Assembly: GCA_958296105.1 (NCBI GenBank)
Contig: OY282441.1
Location: forward strand, 1,275,800-1,339,799
DNA from: an uncultured Dehalococcoidia bacterium
GTDB lineage: Bacteria; Chloroflexota; Dehalococcoidia; Lucifugimonadales; UBA1123
Reading direction: 5' to 3'
DNA length: 64,000 nt
Made by a program: the position numbers and the translations under genes. This document shows positions 20,433 through 31,738 of this stretch, piece by piece. How positions within the stretch are numbered: the first letter of the stretch is position 1; each line of letters starts with the position of its first letter. The notes under the pieces were generated by a model. It worked only from the letters and a program-made list of their open reading frames with translations, made no database searches and was not told the origin of the DNA.

Positions 20433-22295
20433 TCACCTCTTCGTCCGAACGTCGCCCACCCGACGGGTGACGCGCACGTGATCGAGGTGGTCCATCAGGG
20501 CCAGGGCGTACTTGCGGCTGGTGCGGAGCAGGTCGCGCACGTCCGCCACGCTGATCTCCCCGTTCTCGTCCAGATACGCCGAGATCCTATCGACCATATC
20601 GGCGTATGCCGAGGCGGAGAAGGCGACGGACTCGCTGACCTTGACCACCCTGCCCTCGGAGTCCAGCAGGTTGACGATCTCCGGGTCTATGGCGAAGTCG
20701 GTAGGCGGAGAGAACGGGTTGGAGTCGAGCTGCTCAAGATATTCGTCCGCCGTCCGCCTCTGCGAGTCTGCCAGAGTCGGCGAGTGGTCGGGCAGCCTCA
20801 CAAGCGATCCGCGCTCGACCGTCACGCGCGCTTCATCGAGCAGTGCCAGAACGTCGTTGAACACCTGGGGGGTCATGCGCAGGCGCGAGCGCAGCTCCTC
20901 CTTGGGCGCGCCGGACCTCAGCGGAAACTGCCGGTGGTAGTCTGCCAAGGCGGCGCTGGCGCGACCCTCTACGGCGCGCCAGCCGCTGGCGGTGTAGAAT
21001 CTGGATGTCTGGCGTATGCTCTTGGATCCTAGCAACACCACCTGCGCATCGGCAGCCATGGACTCCAGCTCCGCCCTGGCGGTGTCGGCGTTCATGGTCG
21101 AGCGGTTGACAACGGCGCGGAACTCGGCCGGCTCCATGCCCTCGATGGTCTTGAGCAGCACCTCGCGGTCCGTGCCTGTCTCCATGATCCGCAAGCGCTC
21201 GATGGTCGCCGAGTGGCGGCGGCGCGGACGCGGGGCGTGCGTATCCACGATGTTGCCGCCTCCGAGTGTGGTCATGTTGGAGCGTATGACGAAGTAGTCG
21301 CCCTTGGCGACCGCTATCGGGCTGTCCAGCTTCAGCTGCGCCCACGTCGTATCTCCGGGCAGCGCGCGGTCGTCCTCCAGCAGGCGCAGACGCGCGACCG
21401 CCTCGCTGGAGCCTGTGTGTACGGTCACGTACATGTTGTGGCGCAGGGGGTTCGGGGCATCCTTCAGCACGCGCAGATGGACGTCGAAGGCGGTGGTCGG
21501 CCTCAGCCAGCCGGGAGTGGTCAGCACCTCGCCCCTGAATATCCGACTGTGAGGGACGCCGATGAGGTTCACGGCGGCGCGCGTGCCGGGCTCTGCGCGA
21601 TCCACCCTGCTCTTGTGTGTCTGGAGTCCCCTGATCCGCGTACTCTGGCGCGCGATGGCAAGCTCGACGTCCTGGCCTGTCTCCACGTGGCCATCTATCA
21701 GCGTGCCGGTGACCACCGTGCCGAACCCGGTAATCGTGAACGAGCGGTCGATGGGCAGCCTCGGCCGCGCCAAGTCGCGCTTCGCGGGTATCCCTGCGAT
21801 CATGTTCTCGATTGCGGCCACCAGCTCGGGCAGTCCCTCGCGCGTGTGGGCGGAGACTGGCAGGATCGAAGCACCTTCGAGAACGGTGCCTTCGAGCGTA
21901 TCCTCGATGTCCGCAGTGACCAGCTCCAGCCACTCGTCATCGACGATGTCCTTCTTCGTCAGCGCGACCATGCCCCTGGGAATTCGGAGGAGGTCGAGGA
22001 TGGCGAGGTGTTCTCGCGTCTGGGGCATGACCGATTCGTCTGCTGCCACGACGAGCAGCGCGAGGTCTATCCCGCCAACGCCGGCGAGCATGTTGTTGAC
22101 GAAGCGCTCGTGGCCCGGGACGTCGACTATGCTGACTTCGCCGCCTCCGGGCAGTCCGAGCCATGCGAAGCCGAGGTCGATGGTCAGGCCGCGCTCTTTC
22201 TCTTCGGCGAGCCGATCAGGGTCGATGCCAGTCAGCGCCTCGACGAGGGTGGATTTTCCGTGGTCGACGTGACCTGCTGTTCCTACGACAAACAT
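20433..22295 (-). CDS. selB: Selenocysteine-specific elongation factor SelB
   Basis: A 620-residue specialised elongation factor that brings selenocysteinyl-tRNA to UGA codons followed by a SECIS hairpin. The GTPase domain shows GTAGHVDHGKST (residues 5-16), the SelB-typical EEKERGLTIDLGFA, DVPGHERF and TKKD. Domains II-III follow, then C-terminal winged helices (FPLRSGAPKEELRSRL, ISVADVRDLLRTSRKYALALMDHLD) that bind the SECIS RNA. The GLTIDLGFAW signature separates it from EF-Tu. No selA, selD or tRNA-Sec gene is seen nearby. Its presence implies that the organism makes selenoproteins; a candidate lies at 27314-27958. Confidence 0.95.
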   Translation of the reverse strand: MFVVGTAGHVDHGKSTLVEALTGIDPDRLAEEKERGLTIDLGFAWLGLPGGGEVSIVDVPGHERFVNNMLAGVGGIDLALLVVAADESVMPQTREHLAILDLLRIPRGMVALTKKDIVDDEWLELVTADIEDTLEGTVLEGASILPVSAHTREGLPELVAAIENMIAGIPAKRDLARPRLPIDRSFTITGFGTVVTGTLIDGHVETGQDVELAIARQSTRIRGLQTHKSRVDRAEPGTRAAVNLIGVPHSRIFRGEVLTTPGWLRPTTAFDVHLRVLKDAPNPLRHNMYVTVHTGSSEAVARLRLLEDDRALPGDTTWAQLKLDSPIAVAKGDYFVIRSNMTTLGGGNIVDTHAPRPRRRHSATIERLRIMETGTDREVLLKTIEGMEPAEFRAVVNRSTMNADTARAELESMAADAQVVLLGSKSIRQTSRFYTASGWRAVEGRASAALADYHRQFPLRSGAPKEELRSRLRMTPQVFNDVLALLDEARVTVERGSLVRLPDHSPTLADSQRRTADEYLEQLDSNPFSPPTDFAIDPEIVNLLDSEGRVVKVSESVAFSASAYADMVDRISAYLDENGEISVADVRDLLRTSRKYALALMDHLDHVRVTRRVGDVRTKR

Positions 22296-22490: not shown

Positions 22491-22811
22491 TCAGTCGCGG
22501 GCTGAGCCTTCGCCTACGCGCTGGCCAGCCTGTTCCCGCTCGACCGCACGCAGGCGGGAGTCGAGGTCCAGGCGAGACTCCAAGCTCTCGCGGAGATACC
22601 TGAACTCAGCTACGATCTCTGCGTTCTGCGCCCTCATCTCTGCGCCCTGCGCCTCGATCTTGGCTTCGAGCCTGTCGTTCTGCGCCCTCATCTCTGCGCC
22701 CTGCGCCTCGATCTTGCCGCTCTGTGTGTGCATCTGCCACGTAAGTGCGATCACTCCCAGCGAGAACGTAACCACCACAGCTATTACTGCGACCATTTCC
22801 CCTGTTTCCAT
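22491..22811 (-). CDS. Small membrane-anchored coiled-coil protein, copy 1
   Basis: A 106-residue member of a five-gene tandem family. Layout: METGEM, one transmembrane helix (VAVIAVVVTFSLGVIAL, about residues 6-24), a linker with MHTQSG, then repeats of KIEAQGAEMRAQNDRLEA (one full 18-residue unit plus a partial one), and a constant tail FRYLRESLESRLDLDS to the end. Hydrophobic positions are spaced 7, 7 and 4, as in a stuttered coiled coil. The start is set by GGAGG five bases before the ATG, as in all copies. Function unknown. Confidence 0.75.
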   Translation of the reverse strand: METGEMVAVIAVVVTFSLGVIALTWQMHTQSGKIEAQGAEMRAQNDRLEAKIEAQGAEMRAQNAEIVAEFRYLRESLESRLDLDSRLRAVEREQAGQRVGEGSARD

Positions 22812-22969
22812 GAACGCCTCCTTATGGGGGATGAAGCAGCGACAACCGCGGAAGAGACAGATTCGACCCGCAACAGTCCGGCGCGGGGTTCGAGCGAAGC
22901 GCGCCACATGAACCCGCAGGACTTCAATTGTAACATGGGCGGCGATAGGCGATAGAAGAAAGGGAGCGA

Positions 22970-23377
22970 TCAGTCGCCGGCTGAGCCTTCGCCTACGCGC
23001 TGGCCAGCCTGTTCCCGCTCGACCGCGCGCACGCGGGAATCGAGGTCCAGGCGAGACTCCAAGCTCTCGCGGAGATACCTGAACTCAGCTACGATCTCGG
23101 CGTTCTGCGCCCTCATCTCTGCACCCTGCGCCCTCATCTCTGCGCCCTGTGCCTCGATCTTGGCTTCAAGCCTGTCGTTCTGCGCCCTCATCTCTACGCC
23201 CTGCGCCTCGATCTTGGCCTCGATCTTGGCTTCGAGTCTGTCGTTCTGCACCCTCATCTCTACGCCCTGCGCCTCGATCTTGCCGCTCTGTGTGTGCATC
23301 TGCCACATAAGCGCGATCACTCCCAGTGAGAACGTAATAACCACAGCTATTACTGCGACCATTTCCCCTGTTTCCAT
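22970..23377 (-). CDS. Small membrane-anchored coiled-coil protein, copy 2
   Basis: A 135-residue family member with the longest repeat tract of the five. After the same N-terminal membrane helix come three repeat units with the variants GVEMRVQ and GVEMRAQ, two inserted KIEA segments, and a doubled 7-residue piece EMRAQGA. The C-terminal tail is the same as in the other copies. Units have been gained by in-frame duplication in multiples of codons, so the coiled coil changes length while the ends stay constant. The ATG is preceded by GGAGG. Confidence 0.75.
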   Translation of the reverse strand: METGEMVAVIAVVITFSLGVIALMWQMHTQSGKIEAQGVEMRVQNDRLEAKIEAKIEAQGVEMRAQNDRLEAKIEAQGAEMRAQGAEMRAQNAEIVAEFRYLRESLESRLDLDSRVRAVEREQAGQRVGEGSAGD

Positions 23378-23498
23378 GAACGCCTCCTCGTGTGGGATGA
23401 AGCAGTGCCAACTGCCGAGAGACAGATTCGACCCGCAACAGTCTGGCGCGGGGTTCGAGCGAAGCGCGCGCCACGTAAACCCGCAGGGACCCAAGCGA

Positions 23499-23831
23499 TC
23501 AGTCGCGGGCTGAGCCTTCGCCTACGCGCTGACCAGCCTGTTCCCGCTCGACCGCGCGCACGCGGGAGTCGAGGTCCAGGCGAGACTCCAAGCTCTCGCG
23601 GAGATACCTGAACTCAGCCAAGAGCTTGGCCTCGAGTCTGTCGTTCTGCGCCCTCATCTCTGCGCCCTGCGCCTCGATCTTGGCCTCGAGCCTGTTGTTC
23701 TGCGCCCTCATCTCTGCGCCCTGCGCCTCGATCTTGCCGCTCTGTGTGTGCATCTGCCACGTAAGCGCGATCACTCCCAGCGAGAACGTAACCACCACAG
23801 CTATTACTGCGACCATTTCCCCTGTTTCCAT
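23499..23831 (-). CDS. Small membrane-anchored coiled-coil protein, copy 3
   Basis: A 110-residue family member with two repeat units (AQNNRLEA and AQNDRLEA). The junction to the constant tail differs: KLLAEFRYL in place of AEIVAEFRYL, so the last partial unit has been lost. The N-terminal helix and tail are otherwise identical. The GGAGG ribosome-binding site stands just before the ATG. Confidence 0.75.
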   Translation of the reverse strand: METGEMVAVIAVVVTFSLGVIALTWQMHTQSGKIEAQGAEMRAQNNRLEAKIEAQGAEMRAQNDRLEAKLLAEFRYLRESLESRLDLDSRVRAVEREQAGQRVGEGSARD

Positions 23832-23989
23832 GAACGCCTCCTTGTGTGGGATGAAGCAGCGCCAACCGCGGAAGAGACAGATTCGACCCGCAACAGTCCG
23901 GCGCGGGGTTCAAGAGAAGCGCGCCACGTGAACCCGCAGGACTTCAATTGTAACATGGGCGGCGATAGGCGATAGAAGAAAGGGAGCGA

Positions 23990-24355
23990 TCAGTCGCGGG
24001 CTGAGCCTTCGCCTACGCGCTGGCCAGCCTGTTCCCGCTCGACCGCGCGCACTCGGGAGTCAAGGTCCAGGCGAGACTCCAAGCTCTCGCGGAGATACCT
24101 GAACTCAGCTAGGATCTCTGCGTTCTGTGCCCTCATCTCTGCGCCCTGTGCCTCGATCTTGGCCTCGATCTTGGACTCGAGTCTGTCGTTCTGCACCCTC
24201 ATCTCTACGCCCTGCGCCTCGATCTTGGCTTCGAGCCTGTCGTTCTGCGCCTCGATCTTGCCGCTCTGTGTGTGCATCTGCCACGTAAGCGCGATCACTC
24301 CCAATGAGAACGTAATAACCACAGCTATTACTGCGACCATCTCCCCTGTTTCCAT
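23990..24355 (-). CDS. Small membrane-anchored coiled-coil protein, copy 4
   Basis: A 121-residue family member. The repeat tract starts with a shortened unit (KIEAQNDRLEA, 11 residues), then a full unit with GVEMRVQ and RLESKIEA, then the partial last unit AEILAEF. The 11-residue unit equals one hendecad, which keeps the coiled coil in register. Membrane helix, tail and ribosome-binding site are as in the other copies. Confidence 0.75.
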   Translation of the reverse strand: METGEMVAVIAVVITFSLGVIALTWQMHTQSGKIEAQNDRLEAKIEAQGVEMRVQNDRLESKIEAKIEAQGAEMRAQNAEILAEFRYLRESLESRLDLDSRVRAVEREQAGQRVGEGSARD

Positions 24356-24504
24356 GAACGCCTCCTTATGTGGGATGAAGCAGCGCCAACTGCCGAGAGA
24401 CAGATTCGACTCGCAACAGTCCGGCGCGGGGTTCAACGAAGCGCGCCACGTGAACCCGCAGGGCTTCAATTGTAACATGGGCGGCGATAGAAGAAAGGGA
24501 GCGA

Positions 24505-24891
24505 TCAGTCGCGGGCTGAGCCTTCGCTTACACGCTGACCAGCCTGTTCCCGCTCGACCGCGCGCACGCGGGAGTCGAGGTCCAGGCGAGACTCCAAGCT
24601 CTCTCGGAGATACCTGAACTCAGCTACGATCTCTGCGTTCTGCGCCCTCATCTCTGCGCCCTGCGCCTCGATCTTGGCTTCGAGTCTGTCGTTCTGCGCC
24701 CTCATTTCCACGCCCTGCGCCTCGATCTTGGCCTCGATCTTGGCTTCGAGTCTGTCGTTCTGCACCCTCATCTCTACGCCCTGCGCCTCGATCTTGCTGC
24801 TCTGTGTGTGCATCTGCCACATAAGCGCGATCACTCCCAGTGAGAACGTAATAACCACAGCTATTACTGCGACCATTTCCCCTGTTTCCAT
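24505..24891 (-). CDS. Small membrane-anchored coiled-coil protein, copy 5
   Basis: A 128-residue family member, first of the array in the direction of transcription. The repeat tract is close to that of copy 2 (GVEMRVQ, an extra KIEA, GVEMRAQ, then GAEMRAQNAEI) but lacks the doubled 7-residue piece. Near-identity to copy 2 suggests a recent duplication or gene conversion. Function unknown; the type II-like topology would place the coiled coil outside or inside depending on insertion, which the charge pattern does not settle. Confidence 0.75.
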   Translation of the reverse strand: METGEMVAVIAVVITFSLGVIALMWQMHTQSSKIEAQGVEMRVQNDRLEAKIEAKIEAQGVEMRAQNDRLEAKIEAQGAEMRAQNAEIVAEFRYLRESLESRLDLDSRVRAVEREQAGQRVSEGSARD

Positions 24892-25133: not shown

Positions 25134-25556
25134 ATGGAACGAGTCTTGGCTAGAGTGTTGCCCGTATTTTTGGCGGTGACAATGGTGGCGCTGCCTTCGC
25201 TGGGTCCGATGGTGGACCACCATTTCGCGGAGCGTCAGCCGTACCACGCCCACTTGGGCGCGGATACGGGACACGTACACGGCTACCGCGCTTTCCATGA
25301 ACATCTTCCGGTCGGGAGCGGCGCGAATGCTCCAATGGGTAACGAGGGCAGCGTCGCCCTTCCGAATCTCGAAGTCGCATCTTCGGCGGCTCCGGCGGCG
25401 ATGCCGGCGGAGACGGACACGATACGCGCGCTCATGGACGCGGCGGATGGCGTGTTCGCCATCGAGGGCGCGGCGGACTCGGTTCTCGGCTCGGTTTACT
25501 GCACTCCTCCGCTCAGACCGCCTCGCTGCGGCGCGTTGGCTTTCGTTTCTCTGTAA
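25134..25556 (+). CDS. Exported His-rich small protein
   Basis: A 140-residue protein starting MERVLARVLPVFLAVTMVALP, a signal or anchor helix, followed by an exported His-rich stretch (DHHFAERQPYHAHL, then HVHGYRAFHEHLP), which is likely to bind metal. A cysteine-containing end (SVYCTPPLRPPRCGALA) closes the protein. I do not recognise a family. It is the first gene of the run leading to CopC/CopD, so copper or another transition metal is a reasonable ligand. An upstream ATG at 25089 is in frame but lies before the promoter. Confidence 0.6.
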   Translation: MERVLARVLPVFLAVTMVALPSLGPMVDHHFAERQPYHAHLGADTGHVHGYRAFHEHLPVGSGANAPMGNEGSVALPNLEVASSAAPAAMPAETDTIRALMDAADGVFAIEGAADSVLGSVYCTPPLRPPRCGALAFVSL

Positions 25557-25581
25557 CCGAGATGCGCTGGGGCGTCTGTCT

Positions 25582-26193
25582 GTGAGTGTTCGGTTGTTCA
25601 TTCGTTCGGTATCGCGGGTGGCCGCTACGTCATTGCGGGACGGTCACGCGCTGGTCGTCCTGTCCGTCGTGACGCTGGCGGCGGTCGGACTGGCGAGCGT
25701 CCAAGCGGCGAGCGCGCACGGGGGCGGATTCAGTCTGGACAGACGGGCGAGCGCGGGGCCCTACGAGCTGCGGCTCGGCACGATTCCCAACCCGCTTACG
25801 GTGGGCGAGGGTATCCTGATCATGGAAGTCCTAGCCTCGCAGACGGGCGAGCGCGTATCGAGCGCCGACGTGGTGATCACGCCGCAGCGACCGGACGGCG
25901 CAGCGGATCCATACGGCGCTCTGGAAACCTGGCCCGACTCCTATGATCCGACTCTGTACGAGTCCCGCGTGGAGCTGGACGCAGAAGGCGCATGGGCGTT
26001 CAGGGTGAGCGTGAGCGGAGACGCGGGGGCGGGAACGGCGCTGTTCGCCTACGAGGTGCGGCGCGTCAGCCCGGTCGGGGGAATCATAACCCTGTTCGTC
26101 TTGCTGGTCTTGCTCACGATACTGGGGCTTTCGATGCGCGCGTTCCTGAATCAGAGAGACAGCGGCCAAAGAGTCAAGCGGCGAAGGGCATAG
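25582..26193 (+). CDS. YtkA/FixH-like membrane-anchored beta-sandwich protein
   Basis: A 203-residue exported protein. A signal helix (VVLSVVTLAAVGLASVQAASA) is followed by a domain with GPYELRLGTIPNPLTVGEGILIM, which looks like the YtkA-like fold found in copper-export and cytochrome oxidase neighbourhoods, and by a C-terminal membrane helix (GGIITLFVLLVLLTILGLSM) with a basic cytosolic end. The frame is open back to 25297, but that part is Arg-rich shadow sequence overlapping the preceding gene, so I use the GTG at 25582. It lies 29 bp before the next gene. Confidence 0.65.
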   Translation: MSVRLFIRSVSRVAATSLRDGHALVVLSVVTLAAVGLASVQAASAHGGGFSLDRRASAGPYELRLGTIPNPLTVGEGILIMEVLASQTGERVSSADVVITPQRPDGAADPYGALETWPDSYDPTLYESRVELDAEGAWAFRVSVSGDAGAGTALFAYEVRRVSPVGGIITLFVLLVLLTILGLSMRAFLNQRDSGQRVKRRRA

Positions 26194-26222: not shown

Positions 26223-27317
26223 ATGTCGAAGATTCTAATTGCGATGATCTCAGCGGCGGCGCTGGCATCGACTTCAGCCGCCGCGTTCGCGCACGAAGAT
26301 CGAGAGTATGGAGACTACCAGCTGGTGGTGGGATTCATGCAAGAACCCGCATACGAAGGTGAGAAGAACGCGGTCAGCATCCGCGTCACGAAGGAGAAAG
26401 AAGAGGGGAGCCGCGCGGCGGACATGGGCATGGGAAGCCATGACAGCGCGTCCCACGCGCCAGTCGAGTCCGAGACGCCCGTCAGCGCGCGAATCAGCGC
26501 CGAGCTGGAGACGGGCGGCGGCGTGAACGTCCACATAATGACGGAGGGCTGGAGCTGGTCGCCGCAAGGCGTGAACCTGCCCCACAAGCCCGGAGAAGGA
26601 CACGCTCACATCTACGTGGACGGCGAGAAGGTGGGCAGAGTCTATGCGCCATACTATCATCTGGCGGGGCTTCAGCCGGGCGAGCGACACATCCGAGTGG
26701 CGCTCAACACGAACGACCACAACGAGCTGACGGTGAACGGTGAGATCGTGGAGGCGACGGCAACGGTGAGGATTCCCGACACAGGGGCGGACGATACAGG
26801 GATGGGCGGCATGGAGTCGCGGGCAGAGCCGGAGGCGGTGGGCGTGGAGGGGCTTCAAGATACGCTTCGTGTGGAGGTGACGCACGTTCCATCCGGCGTC
26901 TCGATGGTTATGAACCTGCGGTCGGTGTTCGAGGATCCGGGACACTACGCGGCGGATCTGATTCCGACTTCGCCGGGCCACTATCGTATGCGCGTGTTTG
27001 GGACGGTGGAAGGCGAGGAGATAGACGCGACCTTCGAGTCCAAGGCGGGAGGCGGAGACTTCGACGACGTACAGCCGGCGTCGGCGATTCACTTCCCGGA
27101 CGCGCTCCCGTCCGGCCGCGAGCTGGAGGGCGCGGCGAGGGGGGCGCAAGCCGCCGCCGAGAGCGCGCGGGACGCTGCCATGAGCGCGGAAGAGTCGGTG
27201 AGCGGCGCATCCACTCTGGGGCTGGTCGGGGTCGCGCTGGGCGCGCTCGGCGCGCTCATGGGCGGCGGGGCGCTGCTGATATCCATGCGAAACAGGTCAG
27301 GAGAGAGTACGAGGTGA
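26223..27317 (+). CDS. Exported two-domain protein of the copper operon
   Basis: A 364-residue protein with a cleavable signal (ALASTSAAAFAHEDREYG; the mature protein would start with His-Glu-Asp). Domain one begins YQLVVGFMQEPAYEGEKNAVSI, resembling the YtkA-like domain of the previous gene, and is interrupted by a Met/His stretch (ADMGMGSHDSASHAP). A middle domain with GHAHIYVDGEKVGRVYAPYYHLAGL resembles DUF4399-type modules. A second YtkA-like domain (DTLRVEVTHVPSGVSMVM) and a C-terminal membrane helix (LGLVGVALGALGALMGGGALLI) follow. GGAGG at 26212-26216 supports the ATG at 26223. Its stop overlaps the GTG of the next gene. Confidence 0.7.
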   Translation: MSKILIAMISAAALASTSAAAFAHEDREYGDYQLVVGFMQEPAYEGEKNAVSIRVTKEKEEGSRAADMGMGSHDSASHAPVESETPVSARISAELETGGGVNVHIMTEGWSWSPQGVNLPHKPGEGHAHIYVDGEKVGRVYAPYYHLAGLQPGERHIRVALNTNDHNELTVNGEIVEATATVRIPDTGADDTGMGGMESRAEPEAVGVEGLQDTLRVEVTHVPSGVSMVMNLRSVFEDPGHYAADLIPTSPGHYRMRVFGTVEGEEIDATFESKAGGGDFDDVQPASAIHFPDALPSGRELEGAARGAQAAAESARDAAMSAEESVSGASTLGLVGVALGALGALMGGGALLISMRNRSGESTR

Positions 27318-27958
27318 AGCAGCTTATCTACATGCTCACATCTGCCGCGCTGGTGGCGTTCGCTGGGCTGGCGCTTGGCGGGTGCGGAGGCGGAGGCGGA
27401 GGCGCGCGCGAGCCATCGCCCCCCGCCGCAGCGCCCACGCAGGCCGTGGTCGCGCCCACCCAACTGCCTGCGCCAGAGCCGCCCGCGCCAAGCTCGTCCG
27501 ACACGCTCGCGGCCCCAGATTTCAGCCTGCCGTCTGCGGATGGAAGCGCGGTGTCGCTCGCCGCGCTCATGCAAGGCCGGGCGGCGACGGTCTTGGTGTT
27601 CTATCGGGGCTTCTTCTGAGGCATATGCAGGAACCAGCTCGTGGAGCTGGCAGAGGCATATCCGAAGTTCGTGGAGCGGAACGTGGCGCTCGCCGCGATC
27701 AGCACGGACGGCATCGAAGACGCGCGAGGGATGGCGGAGGTGGCTGGGGCGAAGTTCCCGGTGCTGGCGGATGAGGATGCGAGCGTTTCCAAAGGCTATC
27801 GGATCTTCGACCTGCTGAACGATGGCGTCGCCGCGCCTGCGACGTTCGTCATCGACTCGGACGGCGGGATCGTGTCGTACCACGTCGCCGCTAACATCGG
27901 CGAGAGGCCGTCGCCAGATCAGATACTGGCGGAGATCGACCGCCTGACTCTCCCGTGA
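27314..27958 (+). CDS. Candidate selenoprotein: lipoprotein peroxiredoxin with UGA at the active site
   Basis: A 214-residue thioredoxin-fold peroxiredoxin-like (AhpC/TSA) protein if UGA at 27617-27619 is read as selenocysteine (residue 102). The N-terminus is a lipoprotein signal ending LALGGC (Cys24), then a Pro/Ala linker, then PDFSLPSADGSAVSL. The active site reads VLVFYRGFF-U-GIC-RNQL, matching the family motif FYRGxxCxxC with the first Cys replaced. After UGA the frame runs on with family-typical AAISTDG, FPVLADED, YRIFDL and APATFVIDSDG up to 27958. The GTG start overlaps the previous stop, and its own stop overlaps the next GTG. Without UGA decoding the protein would end just before its catalytic site. 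Confidence 0.85.
27617..27658 (+). promoter_or_regulatory. Candidate bacterial SECIS hairpin
   Basis: Starting 14 bases after the UGA, CCAGCTC (27634-27640) pairs perfectly with GAGCTGG (27644-27650) around a three-base GTG loop; TGC at 27626-27628 can extend the stem by pairing with GCA at 27656-27658 after small bulges. A stem with a short loop beginning with G about 20 bases after UGA is what bacterial SelB recognises. The hairpin lies within the reading frame, as in bacterial selenoprotein genes. Confidence 0.65.
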
Positions 27959-30204
27959 GCGCTCGCGGACTGGGCGGGAGCTTCGGCAAGCTGCCAATCG
28001 CTTGCGCGTGTCTCCTCGCGCTGCTGCTGGCGCTAACACCGCTAACGGCGGAGGCGCACGCCAATCTCGTCGAGTCCGATCCGGCTGCCAGCTCGTCGCT
28101 CGACTCGGCGCCGGACAGGGTGACGATCAGGTTCACGGAGCCGCTGGAAGCCGCGCTCAGCGGGATTCAGGTTCTGGATCGGCAGGGCGAGCGTGTGGAT
28201 GGTGGGGACAGCGCGGTCCACTCCGATGACCCGCTCACGATGTCGGTGTCGCTGGAAGACGTGGAGGACGGCGTTTACACGGTCGTGTGGCGGAACGTCT
28301 CCACAGTGGACGGTCACCGCGTTCGCGGGGCGTTCGTGTTCTCGGTGGGCGAGCCGCTGTCCGATGCCGACCGCCCCGAGATTGCCGACCAGCCGATTCT
28401 ACAGTCATGGGCCGAGCCGTTCGCGCGCTGGCTGACGCTGCTGGGCGGACTCGTCTTGGTGGGATGCCTGAGCTTTCGGATGCTGGTATCGAGGCCGGTC
28501 GTGGAATCGCTGGACGCGCGCGGCGTCTCCAAGTTGAAGGGGACGCTGTGGGGCGCAGACCTCAAGCTGGTGTGGCTTGGGCTGGCGCTGTTCCTCAGCG
28601 CGTCCGCGGCTCATCTGGTGATACAGGCGTCGGTCGTGTTCGATACGTCGATCGTCGGCGCGGTTGGCGGGCCGATCTGGTCGATACTGACCGAAACGGA
28701 TTGGGGACGCGCGTGGATATGGCGCGTCGCGCTCGCTGTCGCTCTGGGCGAGGTGGCGTTCGTGGCGTGGAGACGGGGGGAGAATCTCGGAATTCTCGCG
28801 CTTGGCATCGCGCTCGGCGCGGGGGCGCTGCTCACTGTCAGCCTAACCAGTCACGCCGCGGCGACGCCTGCCGTCAGGGGCGGGGCGCTGGTCAACGACT
28901 TCGTTCACATGATCGCCGCCGCGGTATGGGTGGGCGGACTCTTTAGCCTAGCGGTGGCGATCCGGCTCGTGTTCGCCAACCTGAGCGGCGACGGCAGGCG
29001 AGCGGCGCTGACTGCGCTGGCGGCGCGGTTCTCGGCAGTGGCTGGGGCGAGCGTAGCCGCGCTCGCGCTGACGGGCGCTTACAGCGCATGGGCGCAGGTG
29101 ACGATACCGCAGGCGCTGGTCGTTCCGTATGGCTCCGCTCTCGTCGCCAAGCTGTGCGCGGTGGCGGTGATTCTCGCGCTGGCAGCCGTCAACCTGATCT
29201 GGGTCAGGCCTCGCCTGAAGGGGAGCGGCAGGGCCGCAGCGTGGCTCAGGCGGCTGGTGATCGCGGAGGCGGCGATGGGGACTCTCGTTCTGCTGGCAGT
29301 GGGCTTCCTCACCGCGCTGGAGCCGGCGAGACAGGTGGCGTCTCGGCAGGGTATCGGAACGGAGGACATGCTGATCTTTCAGGACACCGTCGAGGGCGCA
29401 GGCATCACGCTCGAAATAGAGCCGGGCCAGATAGGGATGAACCGTATCGGCGTGTCGCTGCGTGACCGATTCGGCGATCCGATTGCCAACGTCAGCGACG
29501 TGAGGGTGCGGCTGTCGTATCTGGACGAGGATCTGGGCGAGACCGCCGTTTCCGCGCTTCCGTCGGGCGCGGGGGAGTTCGCGCTGGATGGGCAGCCGAT
29601 CAGTCTGTCCGGAGCGTGGCAGGTCGAAGTCGTGGCGCAGCGTTCGGACGCCTTCGACGCTCGCGCCGCGTTCAGGTTCGAGGTGTCCGGATCCGAACGC
29701 GGAAGCCTTGCCATCGCACCGTCCGCGCAGACGGGGCGGATGCTGCTGGGGGTCGAGGCGGGAGTGTTCGGGCTGCTGCTGCTCGGAGTCGGCATTCCTC
29801 TGGGCGGCTGGCAGTCGAGAGCGGGCGCGGCGACGATGTCGCTTGGCGCAGTCACTGTGACAGCCGCCGCCGCGCTCGTATTCAACGCGACGGGGGGCGA
29901 TGGAGGCGTTTCCGCGCGAAACCCGATTCCGCCGACTTCGGAGTCGATAGCCGCCGGAATGGAGATATACGAAGCCAGCTGCCAAGCGTGTCATGGAGTG
30001 TCGGGAAGGGGAGACGGGCCGGCTGGAGTGTCCCTGGATCCGCCGCCCGCCGATCTCGCGCTGCACGTCCCGCTGCACCCGGAGCGCGCGCTGTTCGGGT
30101 TCGTGCGAGACGGCATTCCCGACAGCGCGATGGTCGGGGTGGGTGATAAGCTGTCGGAGGACGAGATATGGCATCTGATCAACTACATCCAGACGTTCGA
30201 GTAG
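27955..30204 (+). CDS. CopC-CopD-cytochrome c fusion protein
   Basis: A 749-residue membrane protein. The signal peptide ends at TAEA and the mature chain would start His-Ala-Asn (His35), the amino-terminal copper ligand of CopC; the CopC domain ends near DGHRVRGAFVFSV. About eight membrane helices with a CopD-like domain follow (residues about 140-470). Then come an extracytoplasmic beta domain (GITLEIEPGQIGMNRIGVSL) resembling YtkA modules, two helices, and a C-terminal cytochrome c domain with CQACHG and a methionine-rich MVGVGDK near the end. CopC/CopD are copper-binding and copper-transport proteins; the fused haem domain suggests redox coupling. The GTG start overlaps the selenoprotein stop. 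Confidence 0.85.
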   Translation: MSARGLGGSFGKLPIACACLLALLLALTPLTAEAHANLVESDPAASSSLDSAPDRVTIRFTEPLEAALSGIQVLDRQGERVDGGDSAVHSDDPLTMSVSLEDVEDGVYTVVWRNVSTVDGHRVRGAFVFSVGEPLSDADRPEIADQPILQSWAEPFARWLTLLGGLVLVGCLSFRMLVSRPVVESLDARGVSKLKGTLWGADLKLVWLGLALFLSASAAHLVIQASVVFDTSIVGAVGGPIWSILTETDWGRAWIWRVALAVALGEVAFVAWRRGENLGILALGIALGAGALLTVSLTSHAAATPAVRGGALVNDFVHMIAAAVWVGGLFSLAVAIRLVFANLSGDGRRAALTALAARFSAVAGASVAALALTGAYSAWAQVTIPQALVVPYGSALVAKLCAVAVILALAAVNLIWVRPRLKGSGRAAAWLRRLVIAEAAMGTLVLLAVGFLTALEPARQVASRQGIGTEDMLIFQDTVEGAGITLEIEPGQIGMNRIGVSLRDRFGDPIANVSDVRVRLSYLDEDLGETAVSALPSGAGEFALDGQPISLSGAWQVEVVAQRSDAFDARAAFRFEVSGSERGSLAIAPSAQTGRMLLGVEAGVFGLLLLGVGIPLGGWQSRAGAATMSLGAVTVTAAAALVFNATGGDGGVSARNPIPPTSESIAAGMEIYEASCQACHGVSGRGDGPAGVSLDPPPADLALHVPLHPERALFGFVRDGIPDSAMVGVGDKLSEDEIWHLINYIQTFE

Positions 30205-30220: not shown

Positions 30221-31738
30221 TTGAAGCCGATCAGGATGGTTACAGCGGCCGCGCTGGGGGGCGCGCTCGCGCTGTCGGCTTCGCCGCTCTCGGCGCACGC
30301 CTTCGGTCAGCGCTACGACCTTCCGATACCGCTCAACTACTTCCTCGTGGGCGCGGTGGCGACTGTCGCGCTGTCGTTCGCGGTGATTGGAATGTTCGTC
30401 CGACGAGGCGATGGAGAGTTGTCGTATCCGCGCCTCGATCTGCTTCGCGTTCCGGTTATAGGGTCTGCGCTGTCCAGCCGAATTACGTCCGCCACTGTCA
30501 GGACGCTCTCGGTGGCGGTGTTCGTCCTTCTGCTGACTGCCGGATTCTTCGGGACGGACCGCGCCATAGACAACATTTCTCCGACGTTCATCTGGATCAT
30601 CTGGTGGGTCGGGATGGGATACGTCGTGGCGCTGGCGGGCAACCTGTGGTGGCACGTCAACCCGTGGAAGATCGTCTTCGAGTGGGGGCAAAAGCTCTTT
30701 GGGAACGCCGACGAGCCAGAAGACCCGCCATTCCGATACCCTGAAGGGCTGGACATCTGGCCTGCGGCGCTGCTGTTCTTCCTGTTCGCGTGGGCGGAGA
30801 ACGTCTACACGGGCGCGTTCAGACCGTTCACGCTATCTGTGATGATTCTTCTGTACTCCGCCATCATGTGGGCGGGAATGGCGGCGTTCGGGAAGCATAC
30901 ATGGCTCAGGCACGCGGACGCCTTTACCGTGCTGTTCGGGTTCTTCTCCCGCTTCTCCGCCACCGAGCTCAGGGTGACTGACAGGGCCGCGTGCGGCGGG
31001 TGCGGCTCGGATTGCGGCAAGGGGGCCGAGTGCGTGGACTGCTACGACTGTTTCGAGCGCGCGCCGTCTGATGGCAGAGAGCTGAACCTGCGCCCGTTCG
31101 CCGTAGGTCTAGCGTCGCAAAGGCGCATATCCACGGCAACCGCCGCCTTCGTGATTCTGGCTCTGTCCACCGTGACTTTCGACGGGTTTCAGGACACCGA
31201 GACGTGGGCGAACCTGCGAACGAGCCTTCTGAGGCTTGCCAGCGTGGACGTGGTGGATACGCTGGGGCTTGCTGCGGCGCCCTCGATATTCGCGGCGGTC
31301 TATCTGGCTTTCTGCTGGGGGGTGGCGCGCGCGGGCGGGGAGCGGGCGGGCGCGCTTGCGGCGGCGCGGGGGTTCGCCCTGTCACTGGTTCCCATAGCGC
31401 TGGCTTACAACATGGCTCACTTCATAACGCTGCTGCTGATCGAAGGGCAGCTCATCATTCCGCTCGCATCGGATCCGCTGGGGCTGGGCTGGGATCTGTT
31501 CGGCACGGCAGGTTACGCGATAAACCGGTACGTCATCAGCGCGAAGGCGGTGTGGTTCATCAGCCTGACAGCGATAGTTCTCGGTCACGTGATCGCGGTC
31601 TATCTGGCGCACCTGACAGCCCTCAGAAGGGCGCCCGCAGGGTCTGGCGCGCTGAGGGGGCAGCTGCCAATGCTGGCGCTGATGATACTCTACACCGCAT
31701 CCAGCCTGTGGATAATCGCTCAGCCAATTGTGGGGTGA
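30221..31738 (+). CDS. Polytopic membrane protein with Cys-rich loop
   Basis: A 505-residue protein with an N-terminal signal-like helix and about ten membrane segments; I do not recognise a named family. A loop near residues 255-280 contains CGGCGSDCGKGAECVDCYDC, a dense cysteine cluster fit to bind metal or an Fe-S centre. A histidine-bearing loop GNLWWHVNPWKIVF precedes it. The start is TTG at 30221 with GAGG-type ribosome-binding sequence; it lies 16 bp after the CopC-CopD fusion and probably closes the operon. Its position suggests a part in copper or electron handling at the membrane. Confidence 0.7.
   Translation: MKPIRMVTAAALGGALALSASPLSAHAFGQRYDLPIPLNYFLVGAVATVALSFAVIGMFVRRGDGELSYPRLDLLRVPVIGSALSSRITSATVRTLSVAVFVLLLTAGFFGTDRAIDNISPTFIWIIWWVGMGYVVALAGNLWWHVNPWKIVFEWGQKLFGNADEPEDPPFRYPEGLDIWPAALLFFLFAWAENVYTGAFRPFTLSVMILLYSAIMWAGMAAFGKHTWLRHADAFTVLFGFFSRFSATELRVTDRAACGGCGSDCGKGAECVDCYDCFERAPSDGRELNLRPFAVGLASQRRISTATAAFVILALSTVTFDGFQDTETWANLRTSLLRLASVDVVDTLGLAAAPSIFAAVYLAFCWGVARAGGERAGALAAARGFALSLVPIALAYNMAHFITLLLIEGQLIIPLASDPLGLGWDLFGTAGYAINRYVISAKAVWFISLTAIVLGHVIAVYLAHLTALRRAPAGSGALRGQLPMLALMILYTASSLWIIAQPIVG

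Follow-up and report, generated by a model that had tools for sequence, protein, structure and literature searches.

The gene at positions 27314-27958 (+) of the window (the whole 64,000-nucleotide stretch of DNA analysed here) almost certainly encodes a selenoprotein, with selenocysteine (Sec) insertion deduced from the machinery of the genome and from the signals in the gene. We propose that the product is a membrane-anchored lipoprotein with a peroxiredoxin (Prx) fold, in which Sec insertion at codon 102 would be directed by a downstream hairpin and the resulting UxxC redox pair would act on a partner from the same operon; the probability of this explanation as a whole is put at roughly 0.87. 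The best label for the protein is a membrane-anchored Prx-like thiol/selenol-disulfide oxidoreductase, which is a predicted activity, with a peroxidase role as a further possibility. The original prediction had been a likely selenoprotein, and it is now strongly supported by a full set of Sec machinery, by exchange of UGA and Cys codons among homologues and by a covarying Sec insertion sequence (SECIS) hairpin.

When UGA is read through, translation of the open reading frame gives a single frame of 214 codons plus a stop, with a GTG start and one internal TGA at 27617-27619 (codon 102, U102, context FYRGFF-U-GIC); the terminal stop is also TGA. Cys105, the second residue of UxxC, is encoded at 27626-27628. 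The frame had been described as family-typical across the single UGA and as overlapping its neighbours at both ends, and both descriptions held. In a Pfam search, the AhpC/TSA domain (PF00578, residues 66-187, E 1.8e-27) runs continuously through codon 102. The GTG start (27314-27316) overlaps the stop (27315-27317) of the upstream gene at 26223-27317 (+), a 4-base overlap; that gene encodes a secreted or anchored protein of no known family, whose start was inferred. The stop of the selenoprotein gene (27956-27958) overlaps the GTG (27955) of a CopC-CopD-cytochrome c fusion gene at 27955-30204 (+) (PF04234, 4e-21; PF05425, 3e-18; PF13442, 4e-11). As read from the sequence, the N-terminus of the selenoprotein consists of a signal sequence and a lipobox-like LGGC with Cys24, and the proteins of relatives show a comparable lipobox or, at the N-terminus, a membrane segment. 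Further members of the region are a YtkA-like protein at 25492-26193 (+) (a weak match below the cut-off, with a provisional start) and a 505-aa membrane protein at 30221-31738 (+). The latter has no Pfam or NCBIfam match, contains a Cys-rich CGGCGSDCGKGAECVDC segment and is kept in the copper neighbourhood described below. It was also observed that five adjacent paralogous small ORFs (METGEMVAVIAVV...) occupy 22491-24891 (-); each encodes a single membrane segment plus a short coiled-coil, the latter built from internal repeats of 54/66 bases whose copy number varies.

The host genome is one contig of 3,184,931 bases (3.18 Mb) containing the window, and its Sec trait is complete. Profile searches identified selA (434 bits) and selD (379 bits), and a tRNA-Sec with anticodon TCA (UCA in the RNA) scored 66 bits, over the cut-off. 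The gene for the Sec-specific elongation factor, selB, is located inside the window at 20433-22295 (-) (TIGR00475, 330 bits, cut-off 242), about 5 kb from the selenoprotein gene as had been noted at the outset. Absence of selA, selD and tRNA-Sec from a complete genome had been named as the main observation that would speak against the prediction; all three are present in this single-contig genome.

Several other candidate selenoprotein genes were observed in the same genome. selD itself has an in-frame TGA in SCAGUASK (L013 1480-1560, G000:C1:539652-540569). A second PF00578 protein (L049, G000:C1:2467528-2467908, -) has an in-frame TGA in FTGGUTHQ, resembling the TxxU of Sec-containing peroxiredoxins, and its best NCBIfam match is PrxU, below the cut-off. 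A lipoprotein-like protein with a thioredoxin fold (L055, G000:C1:1864788-1865096, -) is a further UxxC candidate with TGA in FSMTUSVCR, and a thioredoxin-like protein with a long C-terminal extension (L057, G000:C1:445796-446149, +) has TGA in FWTYCUINC (CUxxC).

Conservation of the UGA was examined in related organisms. In a search of 98 related genomes, most close matches were homologues with exactly one internal TGA, and the UGA fell at the same codon once these loci were translated. After chance matches of the regular expression were discarded, 40 distinct UGA sequences from the same order were obtained, including that of the window; over 20 further homologues, mostly with UGA, came from 400 genomes searched across the phylum. 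With the codon conserved in this way, neither chance nor sequencing error can be its source. Homologues from many phyla have Cys at the position of codon 102, as found by a scan with a Cys-only peptide pattern that could return Cys forms only. Within the phylum, Cys orthologues of about 40% identity (for example, in G252, G422, G360 and G381) contain FYRSAGCG[SA]C or FYRATTCGTC. The proposed U/C exchange is therefore visible as UGA in relatives and Cys in other homologues. Some genomes with a Cys homologue also have selB, so a Cys form is not simply a sign that the Sec trait has been lost. selB was over the cut-off in 86 of the 98 relatives, which is consistent with the presence of UGA homologues but is a weak test; no selB over the cut-off was found in the fragmented, 83% complete genome G006, which carries a homologue. 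We also observed a sister subtype with FYRA[FY]WU[TPG]xC (L033, L035, L036, L037, L044, L169, L171 and L174), which has very long Pro/Thr-rich linkers between anchor and domain and occurs in some genomes as two to four side-by-side copies.

The 7-bp hairpin with a short G-leading loop that had been placed about 20 bases past the UGA proved to be a convincing SECIS element, with compensatory synonymous changes in relatives. It comprises CCAGCUC-GUG-GAGCUGG at 27634-27650 (+), within the region (27617-27660) proposed for a bacterial SECIS check, and the distance from UGA is 14 nt to the stem and 21 nt to the loop. Its minimum free energy (MFE) is -11.1 kcal/mol (z -3.5), and none of 200 shuffles was as good. 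Published rules for bacterial SECIS elements specify a loop of 3-9 nt, G within the first two loop positions, a distance of 16-37 nt from UGA and MFE <= -7.5 (PMC13188914); the hairpin has a 3-nt loop with G first, at 21 nt and -11.1. Pairing was seen in 93.6% of stem cells across the 40 distinct sequences; shuffling the columns gave 83.6% and sliding the partner gave 18-43%. In 39 stem cells both sides had changed, against 15.5 expected from shuffles. The silent third base of a Gln codon and the silent first base of a Leu codon formed G/C 20 times and A/U 16 times (2 x 2 counts 20, 2; 1, 16). This was the strongest association among the columns of the region tested (Fisher p = 6e-8), with other silent sites far weaker (next best 9e-4), and genome GC content and shared ancestry could be a partial source of it. 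The first loop base was G in all 40 sequences, and the paired pattern was absent from most Cys homologues. Relative to synonymous randomisation, the average folding energy was only modestly reduced (mean z -0.77), since the hairpin codons are themselves included in the pooled codon usage; for a SECIS, covariation is the more suitable test. An Rfam search gave no match to the hairpin, which is no argument against a bacterial SECIS element. Given this machinery and these signals, the hairpin would recruit SelB with Sec-tRNA(UCA) and thereby place Sec at codon 102.

A structure model of the product (AlphaFold, 30 sequences) had a pLDDT of 94.7 and a peroxiredoxin fold, with Bcp4, AhpE and typical Prx as the best fold matches (Foldseek TM ~0.8, VIA Z ~23). 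When LVFFPLAFTGIC of AhpE was aligned with LVFYRGFFUGIC, R98, U102 and C105 took the places of the Pro, the Thr and the peroxidatic Cys, respectively, of the PxxxTxxC motif; in the alignment of GIANRGTF with GVAAPATF, P175 fell on the catalytic R116 (structure entry 4xih carries the name R116A mutant). R98 is present in 30/30 aligned proteins and Pro at position 175 in 28/30. This Pro is at the site that we take to correspond to the cis-Pro of thioredoxins. UxxC (or CxxC) is the sole redox pair of the mature domain in 30/30 aligned proteins, 29 of which are UGA-coded. Additional Cys residues are confined to the vicinity of the lipid anchor, and only residues 102 and 105 are Cys or Sec within the domain of every member. 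Since the motif Pro and Thr and the catalytic Arg of Prx are all replaced, what the protein presents is a UxxC of thioredoxin type carried by a Prx scaffold. The UGA had initially been assigned to the catalytic position of a peroxiredoxin; the fold stands, but the codon occupies the Thr rather than the peroxidatic Cys.

The UxxC site is very probably the working unit of the protein. As for its main function, the sequence comparison leads us to favour disulfide exchange over peroxidase activity, with some reservation. U102 and C105 are the only redox residues of the mature protein. The selenol, at a helix start, might attack a partner in its oxidised form, either a protein disulfide or, possibly, a peroxide. 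C105 would then resolve the intermediate into a selenenylsulfide; here, the partner would most likely come from the same extracytoplasmic copper/cytochrome operon.

Other readings of the gene were considered. UGA does serve as a stop in the host genome, even at the end of this very gene, and a true stop at codon 102 would imply two short genes, a pseudogene or a sequencing error. However, more than 60 sequences from across the phylum have UGA at this same codon, the domain model extends through it, and both the complete Sec machinery and a covarying SECIS are present; we rejected all three variants on the basis of the UGA conservation and regard their probability as negligible. The protein could instead be an atypical peroxiredoxin working as a single subunit, with U102 as the peroxide-reducing and C105 as the resolving residue, close to the Sec peroxidase first suggested. 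Selenols reduce peroxides rapidly, and copper gives rise to radicals derived from peroxide, so the copper proteins adjoining the gene, together with whole-fold matches to true peroxiredoxins (best to Bcp4 and AhpE), lend this some appeal. The Prx fold thus agrees with the suggestion, but the residues that bind peroxide in Prx have given way to Arg, Sec or Cys, and Pro, leaving a thioredoxin-like UxxC, and we consider a peroxidase possible but rather improbable. A third reading, a ResA/CcmG-like reductase for cytochrome CxxCH or for copper-site cysteines of the adjacent CopC/CopD-cytochrome c protein, would suit the membrane anchor, the neighbouring cytochrome c domain, the neighbourhood kept in five relatives and the second NCBIfam match, which is ResA (E 8e-12, below the cut-off). 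That shortfall, the lack of CcdA/DsbD in the genome and the different neighbourhoods of most family members make it unlikely. Thioredoxin-like exchange through UxxC remains the preferred function.

The placement beside copper proteins, a feature of the original prediction, holds for this genome and five relatives, whereas most of the family lacks it. In four genomes of the same genus or family (G001, G002, G003 and G006), the gene is flanked by homologues of the CopC-CopD-cytochrome protein, of the 505-aa membrane protein and of the upstream protein. G008 belongs to another family; there, the copper and membrane proteins flank the gene, with a YtkA-like gene nearby, and the upstream protein was not called at the locus. 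G025 has a partial version, and the remaining 14 loci examined have different neighbours. The copper link, whether ancestral or acquired, is confined to part of the family; being so limited, it cannot by itself define the function of the protein. Neither DsbD/CcdA nor VKOR was found in the host genome, so no standard reductant or oxidant is visible for an extracytoplasmic thiol pair. It is conceivable, though doubtful, that the lineage has a Se-dependent extracytoplasmic thiol redox system maintaining copper and cytochrome proteins, with an unnamed electron donor, in an organism where neither DsbD/CcdA nor VKOR is detected. How such a UxxC protein is recharged without a visible DsbD/CcdA or VKOR is a question raised by these results. 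Moreover, nature provides here clean exchanges between Sec and Cys in which the SECIS is gained or lost, and these should be useful for testing why Sec is retained.

Comparison with known systems places the gene among several families. Among solved structures, AhpE of Mycobacterium tuberculosis and archaeal Bcp come closest in both sequence and fold, with FTGIC aligned with FUGIC, but the Prx active-site Pro, Thr and Arg are Arg, Sec and Pro here. ResA/TlpA proteins are likewise extracytoplasmic, membrane-anchored CxxC proteins, but the ResA model (NF002854) gave 45.5 bits against a cut-off of 170 and the whole-fold matches are Prx. The best NCBIfam match is SelL-related (NF040769; 51.3 and 52.8 bits, cut-off 120), which shares a Prx-like fold and Sec as the first residue of the motif; the SelL motif is UxxU, whereas that of the gene here is UxxC. 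No NCBIfam model reached its cut-off on the selenoprotein, so standard annotation probably splits or truncates the gene and thereby hides a redox protein that recurs across the phylum. A literature search for selenoproteins together with SAR202 returned nothing relevant. A Prx-like family with UXXC instead of TXXU was reported in the Sargasso Sea survey (PMC1088965), Prx-like 1 (pfam00578, UxxC) accounted for 225 selenoproteins in the GOS survey (PMC2398784), and a Prx-like thiol:disulfide oxidoreductase has been catalogued (PMC1794560), also with UxxC in a 2026 review (PMC13188914). The gene fits the definition of Prx-like 1, PF00578 with UxxC for TxxU (PMC1088965, PMC2398784), and shares with these selenoproteins UxxC in place of TxxU/TxxC and many Cys homologues; by domain and motif it belongs to this kind, of which WP_010940744.1 is a catalogued member. 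The claim of a new selenoprotein therefore needs to be narrowed: UxxC Prx-like PF00578 selenoproteins have been catalogued since 2005-2008, but the gene lies outside the NCBIfam cut-offs and represents a lineage-wide subfamily. By description, it differs from the catalogued proteins in its membrane anchor, FYR[GA]-U-xxC motif, phylum-wide UGA and, in part, copper operon. This phylum-wide extracytoplasmic subfamily is apparently undescribed, set apart on descriptions, and the catalogued members may include it.
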